A stretch of 9,908 nt of DNA from Dehalococcoidia bacterium (GTDB lineage: Bacteria; Chloroflexota; Dehalococcoidia; GIF9; AB-539-J10). The position numbers were made by a program, and so were the translations under genes. Of this stretch, positions 5,032-9,541 are shown piece by piece; the first letter of the stretch is position 1, and each line of letters starts with the position of its first letter. The stretch covers positions 1 to 9,908 of the forward strand of contig JAUVYX010000015.1 of NCBI GenBank assembly GCA_030602865.1. Reading direction: 5' to 3'. A model generated the notes under the pieces. That model was given only the letters and a program-made list of their open reading frames with translations, did no database searches and was not told where the DNA came from.

Positions 5032-5059
5032 TTGACAGAGGAAACAAATAAGCTATAAT
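5032..5059 (+). promoter_or_regulatory. Strong sigma-70-type promoter of the thioredoxin/ArsFG-like operon
   Basis: Perfect consensus boxes, TTGACA (5032-5037) and TATAAT (5054-5059), are separated by 16 bp. Transcription would start near 5066, inside the dyad at 5059-5080, as expected for a strong promoter held off by a repressor. Confidence 0.85.
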
Positions 5060-5080
5060 ATATGCATCAATGTGCATATA
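5059..5080. promoter_or_regulatory. ArsR-type operator upstream of the thioredoxin operon
   Basis: The dyad TATATGCA-N6-TGCATATA has perfect 8-bp arms and overlaps the last base of the -10 box and the expected start of transcription. The same arms and spacing occur inside the palindrome in front of the ArsR gene (7837-7858), with a different spacer. The shared arms and matching position relative to each promoter make it very likely that the ArsR encoded at 7878 represses both units. Binding itself is inferred. Confidence 0.8.
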
Positions 5081-5184
5081 CAAATACAGATAGGCAACTA
5101 ACGTATAGGTGAATTACTGAACTTGGTTAATAGTATAGGCAGATTTAGCTTGAGGAAGAAATAACTATAAAGGAGCTAAGGTAA

Positions 5185-5448
5185 ATGAAGATCAGCATAA
5201 AGGTTTTTCATCCAAGCCCACCATGTGCAAAATGCAAACAGGTGGAGAAAGTGGCTAAAAAGGTAGCTGAAAAGTATCCCGAGGAGGTAGAAATGGTCGC
5301 CTTTCCGGTGATATCTGATGAAGCCCGAAGCTATGGAATCATGCTCACGCCTGGCGTGGTGATAAATGACAGAGTTTTTTCTTCAGGGAAGGTGATTTCA
5401 GAGCTTGAATTGGAGAACGCAGTAAAAAAAGAGTTGGAAGCAGGATGA
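5185..5448 (+). CDS. Small thioredoxin-fold protein, CAKC active site
   Basis: This 87-residue protein has no signal peptide and is presumably cytosolic. It has the minimal thioredoxin/glutaredoxin-like fold of the Thioredoxin_3 type: a first beta strand (KISIKVFH), the active-site loop SPPCAKC (C14, C17) at the start of a long Lys-rich helix, a second strand (VEMVAFPVI), a short helix, and TPGVVIND (T55-P56) supplying the expected cis-proline opposite the CxxC. Start codon ATG is preceded by AAAGGAG at 5169-5175. It is the first gene of an operon and overlaps the next by 4 nt. Its role is probably dithiol electron transfer or metal(loid)/thiol handling, supplying the membrane and lipoprotein partners downstream. 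The substrate is not determinable. Confidence 0.85.
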   Translation: MKISIKVFHPSPPCAKCKQVEKVAKKVAEKYPEEVEMVAFPVISDEARSYGIMLTPGVVINDRVFSSGKVISELELENAVKKELEAG

Positions 5449-5711
5449 TGAAGGTAAAAATGGAAGTGCTCAGTGGAGACCCTCCCTGCCCGGGATGCCT
5501 CGCAATCCTGGAGTTGGCTGATGAGGTTGCCCTGAAATATAAAGAGAAACTGGATGTAACCAAACTGATTGGAGAGGAAGCAATAGCCAAATTCGAAGAG
5601 TACAAAATCGGCTGTGTGCCGGCAATTGTTATTAATGGGAAGATAAGAATTGAAGGCATATGTCCCAGTCGAACTACTTTGGCCAATGCACTAAGGGAAG
5701 GTGGCCTATGA
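5445..5711 (+). CDS. Small thioredoxin-fold protein, CPGC active site
   Basis: This 88-residue cytosolic protein is a paralogue of the preceding gene. It keeps the active site DPPCPGC (C15, C18), a helix, a second strand (LDVTKLIG), and CVPAIVING with the cis-proline at 59. It also has C57 just before the V-P and C73 in the C-terminal GICPS turn; the third paralogue shares the C-terminal Cys but not the cysteine before the cis-proline. The start overlaps the upstream stop (ATGA); an ATG immediately after (5448) is equally possible. GGAAG at 5436-5440 may act as ribosome binding site. The extra cysteines could bind a metalloid or form a second disulfide. A thiol-redox function is well supported; the partner is not known. 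Confidence 0.85.
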   Translation: MMKVKMEVLSGDPPCPGCLAILELADEVALKYKEKLDVTKLIGEEAIAKFEEYKIGCVPAIVINGKIRIEGICPSRTTLANALREGGL

Positions 5712-5974
5712 ATAAGATAAAAGTCGAGGCATTTTTATCAGTCCCAACCTGCTCCGGTGGTGTTGCCCTCTCCAAATTGCTCAGTGAAATCGAAGAGGAA
5801 TATGGTGATAAGGTGGAGCTTATCACTTACAGAGGGCGAAATGAACTATTTGAGAAATATGGCCTGTCTGCTGCGCCAGCAGTAGTGATTGGAGAATTGA
5901 TCAAGATAATGGGACTCTGCCCAAGCAAAGAGTCCCTGCTTGCTGCCCTACTGGAAGTGGGACTAGAACAATAA
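5708..5974 (+). CDS. Thioredoxin-fold protein with degenerate CSGG active site
   Basis: This 88-residue protein is the third tandem paralogue. The start at 5708 overlaps the upstream stop by 4 nt (ATGA) and aligns with the two paralogues; an upstream in-frame ATG at 5660 would add 16 residues lying inside the previous gene and is rejected. The active-site loop reads VPTCSGG: C15 remains but the second Cys of CxxC is replaced by Gly, making it monothiol. The cis-proline (SAAPAVVIG) and the C-terminal GLCPS turn, with another Cys, are retained. It may work as a monothiol glutaredoxin-like protein, a metal(loid)-binding chaperone, or pair its active-site Cys with the C-terminal one. Intact fold features and position in the operon argue against a simple pseudogene. 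Confidence 0.8.
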   Translation: MNKIKVEAFLSVPTCSGGVALSKLLSEIEEEYGDKVELITYRGRNELFEKYGLSAAPAVVIGELIKIMGLCPSKESLLAALLEVGLEQ

Positions 5975-5988
5975 CAGGAAAAATTACT

Positions 5989-7017
5989 ATGAATAGAGCA
6001 ATGGTGATTGCATGCCTTGTCAGTTTGTTATGCCTGGCAACTGGCTTTATGGGTGGTTGTGAAAAAGCTACTGCCGAGAATTCTGAAATCAATGGTGAAG
6101 CGCAAGAAACCTCCCGATTGGAAATCGATTTACTTGGCGTGAAGAGCAGCTTTCCAGTTGATAGCCAGGGAAAGCTTGAGGCAGATGTAAAACTGTCATC
6201 TCTCGATGGGGAGATAACACTCTCGATAGGCAAAGATACGGTTATCATGGACGAGGGTGGAAAGATTATTCAGAATGTCGATGTTGCTATTGCTACTGCC
6301 TATAGTCACCCATCGCTACCGGGCGATACCTGTTTCGTCGGGCCTGTCTATACTTTAATGCCGGAAGGGGCCAATTTTTCTACGCCTGCTTACATCACCC
6401 TAAGGTATGACCTGGAGGAGTTGCCGGAGGGAGTAAATGAGGAAAATTTATTTATCGCCAGCTATCCTTATATTGGCTGCTGTATGGTATATTATGAATG
6501 GAATGTATCATTACATCAGTCTGTAGATATCGAAAACCACATGGTAACTACTCAGCTGTCCCATCTAACACACTTTGTGGTTATGGCACCGGTGGAAGCG
6601 GGCTCCCCTGTCTCCCCCGCGACTCCAGTAGTGCCTGATCCCCCTCCAATACCAGAACCTGAACCTCCTGCGATTCAAGCTGACAGGGTGGAACTGGTTT
6701 ATTTCCACCGTACTCAGAGATGTGCACCTTGTATCTATGCGGAAGACGGGGTGCGCTATACACTGCAGAAGTACTTCGCGGAAGAACTGGCTAACAGCAT
6801 AGTCTCCTTCGAAGTTTATGACTTGGGGAAGGAGAAAAATGCTGCTGTCATTGAGCAATATGGTGCTTATACATCATCACTGTTTATCAACGTGATAAGA
6901 GATGGCATGGATAATATTGAAGAAGTGAACGAAATTTGGCTTGTCGTGGGTGATAATGATGCATTTATTGAAACAGTAAAGAGCAGGATCAAGGAAACTC
7001 TCATGGGGGTAAGCTAA
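5989..7017 (+). CDS. Lipoprotein with ZU5-like domain fused to an ArsF-like thioredoxin domain
   Basis: This 342-residue protein is predicted to be lipid-anchored outside the cytoplasmic membrane: residues 1-23 are a lipoprotein signal ending in GFMGGC (C24). About residues 40-200 form a beta-sandwich of the type common in Dehalococcoidia secreted proteins (LSSLDGEITLSIGKDT, VGPVYTLMPEGANFSTPAYITLRYDLEELPEGVNEENL, then VTTQLSHLTHFVVMA), which resembles ZU5. A Pro-rich linker (about 205-228) leads to a C-terminal domain (about 230-342) with VELVYFHRTQRCAPC (C245, C248), the hallmark of ArsF-type proteins annotated as nitrophenyl compound nitroreductase subunits. It follows the third thioredoxin gene by 14 nt and overlaps the ArsG-like gene by 1 nt. 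It could receive electrons from that membrane protein. ArsF assignment is from memory of the motif, so moderate; lipoprotein and thioredoxin-like calls are firm. Confidence 0.8.
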   Translation: MNRAMVIACLVSLLCLATGFMGGCEKATAENSEINGEAQETSRLEIDLLGVKSSFPVDSQGKLEADVKLSSLDGEITLSIGKDTVIMDEGGKIIQNVDVAIATAYSHPSLPGDTCFVGPVYTLMPEGANFSTPAYITLRYDLEELPEGVNEENLFIASYPYIGCCMVYYEWNVSLHQSVDIENHMVTTQLSHLTHFVVMAPVEAGSPVSPATPVVPDPPPIPEPEPPAIQADRVELVYFHRTQRCAPCIYAEDGVRYTLQKYFAEELANSIVSFEVYDLGKEKNAAVIEQYGAYTSSLFINVIRDGMDNIEEVNEIWLVVGDNDAFIETVKSRIKETLMGVS

Positions 7018-7733
7018 TGGACCCAGGCGGCATAATACAGCAGTTCATTAATAACACAAATGTTCCTGTTCTGGCAGCGTTTGGCCTTGGCTTGTTAACA
7101 GCCATTAGCCCCTGTCCTATGGCAACCAACATTGCTGCTATAGCATATGTCAGCCGTAAGGTGACAGTGCGCAGATATGCTGTGATAACGGGAGTGCTCT
7201 ACACGCTGGGTCGCATGTTTTCCTACTCCGTCATTGGAATTTTGATTCTCAAGGCAGGGCTGGGAATTCCAGGTTCTGCTACTTTTCTCCAGAACTTTGG
7301 CGAGCGTATCCTGGGACCGCTTCTAATAGTTATGGGGCTGCTAATGCTGAATATAGACAGGATATCTTTTAACCCGGGAAGTGGAAAGCTGGCTGAAATT
7401 GGAAGGAAAGTTGCAGATAAAGGTAAGTTAGGGGCTTTTCTGTTAGGTGTCATTTTTGCCTTGGCCTTTTGCCCTTATAGTGCCATTATATTCTTTGGGG
7501 TGTTGCTGCCTCTGGCTTTTAAATCTGCTGGTGGGGTCATAATGCCTGCGGTGTTTGCTATTGGTACCGGGCTCCCGGTAATAATATTTGGCACGCTTAT
7601 AGCGGCTGGTGTGGCCAGAATTTCTGCCTGGTTTGACGCAGTTACCCGTGCTCAGAAAATCATCCGTATAGTAGTCTCAAGCACCTTTATATTAATTGGA
7701 ATATACTATGTGGTTCTCTGGATACAGGCTTGA
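7017..7733 (+). CDS. CcdA/DsbD-like, ArsG-type membrane protein
   Basis: This 238-residue integral membrane protein has about six TM segments, in the cytochrome c biogenesis (CcdA/DsbD) superfamily and close in pattern to ArsG-type aromatic arsenical efflux permeases. The first repeat carries LLTAISPCPMATNIAAI (C33) and the second carries ALAFCPYSAIIFFG (C152). These match the two intramembrane cysteines by which CcdA/DsbD move reducing equivalents across the membrane. Its start codon overlaps the upstream stop (TAATG), so it is translationally coupled to the ArsF-like lipoprotein. It may act either as an electron conduit from cytosolic thioredoxins to the lipoprotein domain or as an efflux permease. 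Superfamily membership is firm; the ArsG label is moderate because it rests on the motif and on the ArsF-like neighbour. Confidence 0.85.
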   Translation: MDPGGIIQQFINNTNVPVLAAFGLGLLTAISPCPMATNIAAIAYVSRKVTVRRYAVITGVLYTLGRMFSYSVIGILILKAGLGIPGSATFLQNFGERILGPLLIVMGLLMLNIDRISFNPGSGKLAEIGRKVADKGKLGAFLLGVIFALAFCPYSAIIFFGVLLPLAFKSAGGVIMPAVFAIGTGLPVIIFGTLIAAGVARISAWFDAVTRAQKIIRIVVSSTFILIGIYYVVLWIQA

Positions 7734-7804
7734 AATGGAAGTTCATCTTGTGGTCGGATAATTAGTTACAGACAACCAACCTTGTGAATAAAGAGTACAT
7801 GTGG

Positions 7805-7833
7805 TTGACTTTCTGTAAGAGCTTGGATAAAAT
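7805..7833 (+). promoter_or_regulatory. Promoter of the arsR-permease unit
   Basis: TTGACT (7805-7810) and TAAAAT (7828-7833) are separated by 17 bp. The -10 box lies inside the left arm of the 42-bp palindrome, and transcription would start near 7840, within the operator. This is classical autorepression geometry. Confidence 0.8.
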
Positions 7834-7868
7834 AACTATATGCACATTTGTGCATATAGTTATTTTAT
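7827..7868. promoter_or_regulatory. Perfect 42-bp palindrome: ArsR operator and probable terminator
   Basis: Two perfect 20-bp arms (7827-7846 and 7849-7868) flank a TT centre. The core 7837-7858 is TATATGCA-N6-TGCATATA, the same dyad as at 5059-5080. It overlaps the arsR -10 and start of transcription, so it should be the ArsR binding site. In transcripts coming from the upstream operon it would form an A-rich tract, a stem with a 4-nt loop (GCAC-AUUU-GUGC) and a U-rich tail (UUAUUUUAU), the layout of an intrinsic terminator. Transcripts from the arsR promoter would lack most of the left arm and escape it. Confidence 0.85.
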
Positions 7869-7877
7869 GTTAAAGAT

Positions 7878-8225
7878 ATGCGAAAGTTAGTTAAAGTTTT
7901 CAGGGCTTTGTCAGATGAGACCAGAATCAGAATTCTGAAGATTCTGCTGGAAAGGGATTGCTGTGTGTGTGAGGTAATGCAGGCACTGGATATCTCACAA
8001 TCGCGTGCCTCGCGTAACTTAAGTATATTGGAGAATGCTGGCTTTGTTAACTCCAGGCGGGAGGGATTGTGGATAGTCTATTTCATTGATAACGAAAGTA
8101 ATGGTTCTGTTACCTCTCTACTACAGATGCTGAGCACCTGCATGGAGGGAGAGGAGATTATCAAGCTGGATAAAGAGAGATTAGGACGAGCCGCTAGGAT
8201 AGGCTGTAGAACTCTGAAGAAATAA
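7878..8225 (+). CDS. arsR: ArsR/SmtB-family metalloregulatory repressor
   Basis: This 115-residue winged-helix dimeric repressor releases DNA when it binds a toxic metal(loid). It begins with the typical LVKVFRALSDETRIRILKILL. The metal-site motif is DCCVCEVMQAL (C28, C29, C31), matching the CxC of arsenite-responsive ArsR proteins. The recognition helix is ISQSRASRNLSILENAGFV (about 39-57) and the wing is RREGLWIVYFI. Further Cys at 88 and 110 lie in the C-terminal helical part and could complete a three-coordinate site. The ribosome binding site is poor (AAAG), and the gene sits directly downstream of its own operator. It is followed by the permease gene after 55 bp with no terminator seen, so the two are probably co-transcribed. 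Family is certain; the As(III) rather than Cd, Sb or other effector is inferred. Confidence 0.93.
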   Translation: MRKLVKVFRALSDETRIRILKILLERDCCVCEVMQALDISQSRASRNLSILENAGFVNSRREGLWIVYFIDNESNGSVTSLLQMLSTCMEGEEIIKLDKERLGRAARIGCRTLKK

Positions 8226-8280
8226 AGGCTTCGAGAGGGGTAATCTGCGCCAATTGCCGGATTTATATTGGAGGAAGTAA

Positions 8281-9321
8281 ATGTTTGAATTAATTATGCA
8301 GTCAGGACTGGACGCCATGAAGGAATATGTGGCACTGCATGTGCTTACCTGCCTCGTCCCAGCCTTTCTTCTTGCCGGGGCGATAGTATCCTTCGTGTCC
8401 AGGGAGGCGATCATAGGGCATCTGGGCAGTGCCGTGAACAAGCTCAAATCCTTCCCAATTGCAGCTGGAGGAAGTTTCTTCATCGCGGTTTGCTCATGTA
8501 CAGTCATTCCTGTTGCCAGTGGTCTCTATTATGGAGGCGCAGGGATTGGCCCCGCCTTCATTCTGCTCTGGGTGGCACCGGCTGCGAATGTTCTGGCACT
8601 GGTTTATACCGGCTCGATCCTGGGCTCTCAACTGGTTATTGCTCGATTGATAGGAGCCCTTGCCGTCTCTTTTATAATTGGGATGATTATGTTCCTTTCT
8701 TTCAGGAAAGAAGAAAAACAGAGAGTACAGACCATTCAGGCTTCAACAGGGAAGGTTATGACCAGACAGAATGGCATACTGCTTCTACTGCTGGTGGCGA
8801 GTCTTCTAGCTCCCAATTATGCAGTACAAGGAGGGAGCTATTATGCAAAGATTGGGGTATGGATGGCGGCTACGGCGGTAACAGCGATTTATGTCTGGAG
8901 GGTTAAGAGTTGGAATGAAATTAAAGGCTGGATGAGGGAGACCTGGTGGTTTGTGCGCATGATATTTCCTTTGCTCCTGGGAGGAGTATTTATAGTAGGT
9001 GTCATCGGAGCTGTACTGCCTGAGGCTTGGATAGAGAGGTTTTTAGGCGGAGAAGGATTGAGACAATCTTTTCTTGCTACGATGATTGGCGCGACGACTT
9101 ATTTTGCTACCATGACCGAAGCTCCTTTTGTAGACACTTTGATGGGATTGGGGATGGGCAAGGGGCCTGCGCTGGCTTTATTGCTTACAGGTCCAGGACT
9201 CAGTTTGCCCAGTTGGCTGGCTATAGGGAGAGTATTTGGTTTTAAGAAAGCCCTGGTATATATTCCCAGCATAATTGTTCTGGGGACCTTGCTGGGTTGG
9301 TTGGCTGGCTATATTTTGTAA
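8281..9321 (+). CDS. ArsP-type (UPF0718/DUF318) permease
   Basis: This 346-residue polytopic membrane protein of the permease family includes ArsP, an exporter of trivalent organoarsenicals. The ATG at 8281 is preceded by GGAGGAAG (8270-8277). The first half has about four TM segments with the family signature GGSFFIAVCSCTVIPVASGLY (C71, C73), then a charged cytoplasmic loop (about 141-158). The second half has about four to five segments with ATMTEAPFVDTLMGLGMGKGPALALLLTGPGLSLPSWLAI. The length is usual for the family. It lies downstream of the arsenite-type arsR and upstream of a decayed glutaredoxin-like gene, a neighbourhood common for this family. Transport of an arsenical is the best guess; other soft-metal or thiol-linked substrates cannot be excluded. 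Confidence 0.9.
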   Translation: MFELIMQSGLDAMKEYVALHVLTCLVPAFLLAGAIVSFVSREAIIGHLGSAVNKLKSFPIAAGGSFFIAVCSCTVIPVASGLYYGGAGIGPAFILLWVAPAANVLALVYTGSILGSQLVIARLIGALAVSFIIGMIMFLSFRKEEKQRVQTIQASTGKVMTRQNGILLLLLVASLLAPNYAVQGGSYYAKIGVWMAATAVTAIYVWRVKSWNEIKGWMRETWWFVRMIFPLLLGGVFIVGVIGAVLPEAWIERFLGGEGLRQSFLATMIGATTYFATMTEAPFVDTLMGLGMGKGPALALLLTGPGLSLPSWLAIGRVFGFKKALVYIPSIIVLGTLLGWLAGYIL

Positions 9322-9354: not shown

Positions 9355-9388
9355 TGCCTGGAGAAATTCCTGATAAGGAGACGGCTTT

Positions 9389-9541
9389 ATTAAGATCGAG
9401 GTTTGTGGACAGGGTTGTTCCAGGTGTCACCCCCTACTTAGGAGTGTAAGGAAAGGGCTAAAGGGTCTGGGACGGGAAAATGGAGTAGAGGTGATTCCCT
9501 GTGTGGATGATATAAAATAATGGATTGAAGAGCGAGGCTAA
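9389..9541 (+). pseudogene. Decayed thioredoxin/glutaredoxin-like gene (TM0996/MTH895-type)
   Basis: A good ribosome binding site, AAGGAG (9375-9380), is followed after 8 nt by ATT instead of ATG. Reading from there gives KIEVCGQGCSRC and then helix and strand sequence ending VIPCVDDIK, a recognisable small thioredoxin-fold protein with active site C10/C13, 43 codons long before a TAA at 9518-9520. Beyond that stop the same frame gives WIEERG and a second TAA at 9539-9541. The part that should carry the cis-proline strand and C-terminal helix is missing in all frames of the next 60 bp. The start is mutated or non-canonical, there is an in-frame stop, and the C-terminal half is lost, so this is best read as a pseudogene. 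Intact relatives often follow UPF0718 permease genes. Confidence 0.75.

Follow-up and report, generated by a model that had tools for sequence, protein, structure and literature searches.

How is a set of redox genes connected to arsenic sensing? The question is raised by a stretch of Dehalococcoidia DNA, one 9,908-base contig (GenBank JAUVYX010000015.1; hereafter the window), in which trx1, trx2, trx3, arsF and arsG (unit 1) are followed by the repressor gene arsR and the permease gene arsP (unit 2). The named relatives of the window's proteins belong to the Dehalococcoidales or Dehalococcoidia. A preliminary description, made from the letters alone, had proposed an ArsR regulon defined by a shared operator, and our analysis supports this: one arsenic-sensing repressor probably controls the two neighbouring units through two copies of the same switch. 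The computed support comes from the sites themselves, their placement on promoters, their conservation together with arsR, and a second genome of the same layout.

The dyad TATATGCA-N6-TGCATATA occurs exactly at the two places given in Table 1. As the preliminary description had stated, there are only two: no third copy with three or fewer mismatches was found in the window, and shuffling the window 200 times gave a mean of 0.08 copies and never two. Each dyad also lies on a predicted promoter, as had been claimed, with operator 2 beginning three bases after the -10 of its promoter; the distance from the start of the -35 to the dyad is 27 nt at site 1 and 32 nt at site 2. Promoter-like matches in the region are no more common than in shuffles (7 versus a mean of 6.8), so the two promoters rest on their placement and conservation. 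Operator 2 sits at the centre of a 20-2-20 inverted repeat without mismatches (7827-7868), which contains a perfect 12-2-12 repeat at 7835-7860, and site 1 is an imperfect 12-2-12 repeat with 8/12 pairs by hand count. Binding to 12-2-12 repeats close to start sites is described for ArsR/SmtB proteins in excerpts of PMC8790569 and PMC5658604, and both sites of the window have this form and lie at the -10 and the expected start.

Table 1. Features of the window; positions count from its first base, and L171 is the two-site locus of genome G033 that was aligned to it
Feature	Position	Strand	Details
Predicted promoter of unit 1, TTGACA-N16-TATAAT	5032..5059	+	TTGACA 5032-5037, 16 nt, TATAAT 5054-5059; 12/12 hexamer matches; 24/27 identical in L171 (5032-5058)
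Operator 1, TATATGCATCAATGTGCATATA	5059..5080	.	1-base overlap with -10; 23.7 bits on relatives' matrix; 22/22 in L171
Unit 1 leader, 104 nt	5081..5184	+	91/104 identical in L171
trx1, Thioredoxin_3, CAKC active site	5185..5448	+	ArsE/MTH895-like, below family cut-off
trx2, Thioredoxin_3, CPGC	5445..5711	+	
trx3, Thioredoxin_3, CSGG	5708..5974	+	
arsF-like lipoprotein, C-terminal thioredoxin-like domain (CAPC)	5989..7017	+	NF040494 79.8 bits, cut-off 60; lipobox by eye
arsG-like membrane protein (DsbD/CcdA-type), Cys33 and Cys152	7017..7733	+	NF040495 268 bits, cut-off 200
Predicted promoter of unit 2, TTGACT-N17-TAAAAT	7805..7833	+	TTGACT 7805-7810, 17 nt, TAAAAT 7828-7833; 10/12 hexamer matches; 30/32 identical in L171 (7805-7836)
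Operator 2, TATATGCACATTTGTGCATATA	7837..7858	.	30.2 bits on relatives' matrix; 19/22 in L171
arsR, ArsR/SmtB repressor with CCVCE metal box	7878..8225	+	NF033788 87.8 bits, cut-off 55
arsP-type permease	8281..9321	+	PF03773 (ArsP_1) 237.1 bits, cut-off 32.3

Relatives were collected by searching genome contigs with an ArsG alignment, from which the best 80 loci of 534 confirmed relatives were used, and by ArsR searches of the order (84 genomes) and of a class sample (393 genomes). Most of them have a similar dyad before arsR, TATATGCR-N6-YGCATATA. The 45 arsR upstreams analysed all differ from one another, although some come from near-identical genomes such as L093 and L094; their best dyad match within 80 nt averaged 12.7/16, versus 9.3 in dinucleotide shuffles, and 36 of the 45 reached p<=0.05 against those shuffles. 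A symmetric matrix built from 36 sites of relatives, which is optimistic because its sites were picked as best matches, reads TATATGCG-CATATG-CGCATATA, where A is the next most frequent base at position 8. Its six central bases are not free, position 10 preferring A (0.83) and position 11 T (0.68). The preliminary description had taken the identical arms around differing spacers (TCAATG in dyad 1, CATTTG in dyad 2) as a sign of selection on the arms; the arms are indeed exact at both sites, but the constraint on the central bases in relatives means that the freely varying spacer does not stand.

The association with arsR extends beyond this set. Nine loci outside it all have a site 6-21 nt before arsR (9/9, p<=0.005 against dinucleotide shuffles), and a tenth, L132, repeats L016. 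A genome scan for the dyad had been proposed as a check, and we ran it on the relatives' genomes: in the class sample 19/393 genomes have the strict pattern, each of them once, versus one match of a reversed-pattern control, and 18 of these 19 sites adjoin an arsR. Thirteen of the 19 lie outside the training set of the matrix, and 12 of those precede an arsR. With one mismatch allowed, the order has 25 sites in 22/84 genomes versus 2 control matches; 21 stand before arsR, one before the cut-off arsR of G033, one before G033 trx1, and two elsewhere (L164 and L168). Of the 43 upstreams counted, all of which have a TTGAC-like hexamer, 30 have a -35 that starts 24-30 nt ahead of the dyad. ArsR bound there would thus sit over the -10 and the start, which is standard ArsR/SmtB repression according to excerpts of PMC8790569 and PMC5658604.

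The two-site layout itself recurs in G033, the closest genome that we found. In the 1.2 Mb of this genome examined there are just two sites at one mismatch or fewer, both on one 3,198-base contig, where they lie 2,781 bases apart (2,778 in the window) in the order operator 1-trx1-3-arsF-arsG-operator 2-start of arsR, as in the window. An alignment of the intergenic regions with a relative had also been suggested, and the one with L171 gives identical bases at all 22 positions of operator 1 and at 19/22 of operator 2, where two changes are central and the third, in an arm, replaces A by G at the R position. The promoter regions are 89% (unit 1) and 94% (unit 2) identical and the intergenic flanks upstream of them 61% and 66%, a comparison that shows both promoter-operator units as constrained relative to the flanks before them.

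ArsR is a fitting partner for these sites. It scores above the cut-offs for the winged helix-turn-helix (HTH) fold of the family (PF01022, 60.3 bits versus 22; NF033788 in Table 1). Its CCVC box presumably lacks the third cysteine of R773. The full motif, DCCVCEV, is a close variant of ELCV(C/G)D, as the ArsR/SmtB metal box is worded in an excerpt of PMC5658604. CCVCE is found in 41/45 ArsR rows (the exceptions are L010, L112, L113 and L117) and the recognition helix SQxRASRNL is exact in 34/45, a conservation of box and helix that fits a conserved operator and thiol sensing. Solved structures among ArsR's sequence relatives include CzrA, SmtB and CadC. We considered a viral origin, but a scan of viral contigs with ArsR found no relative, and a plasmid search with ArsR returned two matches at 38% identity. 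The ArsR proteins of L112 and L113 have a CCVYE box within a single open frame of about 300 amino acids. We take the C-terminal part of these two proteins to resemble a nitrogenase-cofactor (NifX-like) domain.

How the two units came to share a switch is suggested by gene order, which we counted in Dehalococcoidia-type loci; 51 of the best 80 (L028-L034, L036-L041, L043-L080) were excluded, and L027 is a fragment. Among the 31 non-window arsG loci counted, arsR lies upstream of arsG in all 23 that have arsR in reach; the other eight include L171, whose contig ends at arsR. L015 and L024 have an additional arsR downstream of arsG. The tree of ArsG pairs the window with L171 (support 100/100) within a group supported at 86/94, in which several inner forks are open and all members with arsR in reach have it upstream. 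Because of this gene order and tree grouping, the two-unit form of the window and G033, with a separate operator for trx1-3-arsF-arsG, is probably a derived rearrangement. A trx1-3 trio near the window's version occurs only in L002, L004, L015, L024 and L171. The ArsF and ArsG genes of relatives sit in the arsR cluster, in four loci together with trx genes, so a shared operator would be expected, and the earlier proposal that the redox operon is tied to metalloid sensing is supported. We also considered operator 1 as the leftover of a deleted arsR with a fossil in 5081-5184; this is unsupported, as a comparison with 39 ArsR tails ranked it only 162 of 517 stop-ended window peptides.

Operators other than that of arsR are found in relatives as well. 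A weaker second site lies 11-28 nt before arsP, where 18/33 arsP upstreams reach p<=0.05, versus 0/5 for trx1, 0/5 for arsF and 1/27 for arsG; the 70-nt stretch used in this test misses operator 1 of the window, which is 104 nt from trx1. Examples are L002 6761, L004 2104, L008 1151, L011 2521 and L016 2540, and the site often comes just after a T-run following the arsR stop. The 70 nt upstream of the window's own arsP have no such site (p 0.185). G410 has divergent arsR and arsP with one operator each. Additional operators are therefore a recurring feature, of which the window shows one arrangement. The frequent arsP site and the probable derived split both go beyond the preliminary description.

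We consider it very likely that the window's ArsR acts on both dyads in this way, on a locus split from an ancestral cluster. By analogy with the ArsR/SmtB family, an ArsR dimer would bind each dyad and block RNA polymerase at the two promoters, repressing its own unit (arsR-arsP) and the detached redox unit (trx1-trx2-trx3-arsF-arsG); ArsR would be freed when a trivalent arsenical, either inorganic As(III) or an organoarsenical, occupies the CCVC box, and both units would then be switched on together. The neighbouring ArsP, ArsF and ArsG argue, by their family names only, for an organoarsenical as the inducer. To judge from gene families, ArsP may export organoarsenicals, and the trx/ArsG/ArsF set may move thiol electrons or handle aromatic arsenicals. 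The ancestral state would have been a single cluster headed by the operator and arsR, from which the lineage of the window would have departed by placing the redox genes in front of arsR-arsP with their own copy of the operator.

Several observations weigh against this account. The promoters are conserved in L171 to about the same degree as the leader (88%) and the genes (88-96%), so the constraint on the promoter-operator units is visible only relative to the upstream flanks. Nine of the 45 arsR upstreams miss p<=0.05 (L011, L015, L024, L016, L020, L025, L043, L101 and L112); L011, L015 and L024 are second arsR copies, L043 is from a member of the Paceibacterota, and L016 reaches p 0.005 when it is reread as L132 with the matrix. 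Beside the spacer the relatives' consensus CG (0.57) is more common than CA (0.36), the window belonging to the A side. Only about the first eight bases of arsR lie on the G033 contig, and the rest of that assembly yielded no ArsR. That arsenic is the sensed metal rests on the motif and the neighbours, and ArsR proteins encoded outside the 9,908-base contig could share both sites. A related alternative, in which site 2 alone is the local ArsR's and site 1 is the target of another ArsR/SmtB-type repressor encoded elsewhere, is favoured by the lower score of site 1, by the two ArsR copies in some relatives (L015, L024, G023, G044 and G065), and by the fact that the analysis covered only this contig of the window's genome. 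We nevertheless regard it as improbable, given that the arms of the two sites are identical, that G033 has just the two sites, and that the ArsF/ArsG genes of relatives sit in the arsR cluster.

The dyads might instead be RNA hairpins acting as terminators or attenuators. Site 2, between arsG and arsR, does form a very strong hairpin (-23.9 kcal/mol, z -9.2), and its copy in L171 still folds (-11.6, z -3.2). However, L171 has kept the core dyad without the outer arms, and on this ground we rejected the terminator reading of site 2; the fold of site 1 is hardly more stable than those of its shuffles (z -1.4), neither dyad scored as terminator-like, the dyads lie at the expected start, and relatives' sites keep base identity beyond complementarity. 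There is thus only a slight chance that the dyads are hairpins rather than operators. An assembly chimera might also produce the layout, which is seen in a single metagenome contig and, among the 31 non-window arsG loci, is common only to G033. It is very unlikely indeed, because G033 repeats the order and spacing on a separate contig.

If ArsR controls both units, what might unit 1 do? The preliminary description had noted that no classical arsenate reductase, ArsB or Acr3 is present, and ArsB, Acr3 and ArsC are likewise absent from the window proteins that we scanned against NCBIfam and Pfam (the protein at 2-634 lay outside the scan). ArsF and ArsG score above the family cut-offs of the ArsEFG system, and ArsP above that of the ArsP_1 domain, but the three thioredoxins score 45.3, 31.6 and 17.8 against 62 for the ArsE family (TIGR00412). 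In ArsF a CxxC is found at the aligned place in 59/67 rows and is missing from the other eight. ArsG matches the DsbD/CcdA Pfam families, and its Cys33 and Cys152 are kept in 83/83 aligned sequences, the window's among them. Its predicted structure is mediocre (pLDDT 67.9), and the best fold match of the model, CcdA 5vkv (probability 1.00, E 4e-3, TM 0.39), makes a CcdA-like fold only suggestive; neither ArsG nor ArsP had relatives of solved structure at E<=0.001. A thiol relay, with trx1-3 inside and ArsF outside, is as plausible for ArsG as the efflux role in its name. A tentative and rather doubtful extension is that the ArsR-controlled set forms a transmembrane thiol-electron relay for arsenicals, from cytoplasmic trx1-3 through ArsG to surface ArsF, with ArsP exporting the trivalent products and the arsenic sensor coupling relay and pump through the duplicated operators. 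ArsG would then be a CcdA-like conduit instead of an efflux permease, and ArsF would reduce arsenicals outside the membrane.

The ArsEFG system of Chen, Zhang and Rosen (2019) is said, going by family names and a title, to concern nitroarsenical reduction and aromatic arsenical resistance. The window resembles it in its ArsF and ArsG, and differs in its three Thioredoxin_3 genes, which all score below the ArsE-family cut-off, and in the linkage to ArsP and ArsR. An excerpt of PMC9144182 introduces ArsEFG with a citation of that 2019 work. The Tso three-selenoprotein operon, as described in part of PMC13188914, likewise has small thioredoxin-like proteins, and NCBIfam's TsoR is an ArsR/SmtB-type regulator; unlike it, the window has no Tso family at cut-off (TsoX 36.5/52, TsoC 33.3/45, TsoR 35.8/115) and its trx genes have no in-frame stop. 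The ArsR/SmtB systems with 12-2-12 operators (E. coli ArsR, SmtB, CzrA and AzuR; excerpts of PMC8790569 and PMC6555750) are alike in their HTH_5 protein, CxC box, inverted repeat near the promoter or start and apparent autoregulation, whereas the arm TATATGCR and the two operators for two units set the window apart. ArsR proteins acting on separate units are already known from Thermus thermophilus and A. tumefaciens, according to excerpts of PMC5658604 and PMC7965956. In T. thermophilus one ArsR/SmtB protein, TtSmtB, acts on separate arsenic-gene promoters, much as we propose here, but the targets given in the excerpt of PMC5658604 are its own gene, a Zn/Cd-type ATPase and ArsC, whereas those of the window would be arsR-ArsP and the trx/ArsF/ArsG unit, with identical operator arms.

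A literature search with limited result lists, outside which most subscription papers lay, returned no paper on this Dehalococcoidia regulon or operator; as far as that search goes, the operator, its link to trx/ArsF/ArsG and the two-operator split are new. They offer a precise candidate for the operator through which ArsR regulates genes in a class of mostly uncultured bacteria, and they tie poorly understood trx/ArsF/ArsG genes to metalloid sensing through regulation, beyond what annotation alone provides. The locus would also be a case of a split gene cluster in which each part has kept a copy of the switch and relatives preserve the single-cluster form.

Smaller features of unit 1 and its leader deserve mention. 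The active site of trx3 has a single Cys in 6/6 sequences compared, unlike those of trx1 and trx2, and in the ArsF-like lipoprotein the N-terminal two thirds (5989-6690) have no Pfam match at E<=0.01. A riboswitch or structured leader was rejected, as 5081-5184 has no Rfam match at gathering score and folds no more stably than shuffles (z -0.31 and 0.81). By eye, the leader holds a 13-codon frame with a TTG or ATG start (VNSIGRFSLRKK / VNGIVRFSLRKK) that ends shortly before trx1. After arsP, 9384-9540 looks like a decayed gene, a remnant resembling an MTH895/ArsE-type thioredoxin by eye (VCGQGCSRCHPLLRSVRKG...DDIK, then a stop) with no clear start.

Other sites were seen in relatives. On a further G410 contig (L173 7521 and 7648) two operators are flanked by two lipoprotein genes, one of them for a thioredoxin lipoprotein, and may mark an additional unit of the regulon; none of the five ArsR matches of G410 is on that contig. 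L168 1501 (G083) is a one-mismatch site of 10.4 bits before a lipoprotein that, by eye, is like a metal ABC-transporter binding protein. A different but related palindrome, TATATGAATTNNNATTCATATA, is found 1.3-3.2 kb upstream of arsR at L005 4340, L007 2044 and L010 4517 and is possibly the operator of another regulator.

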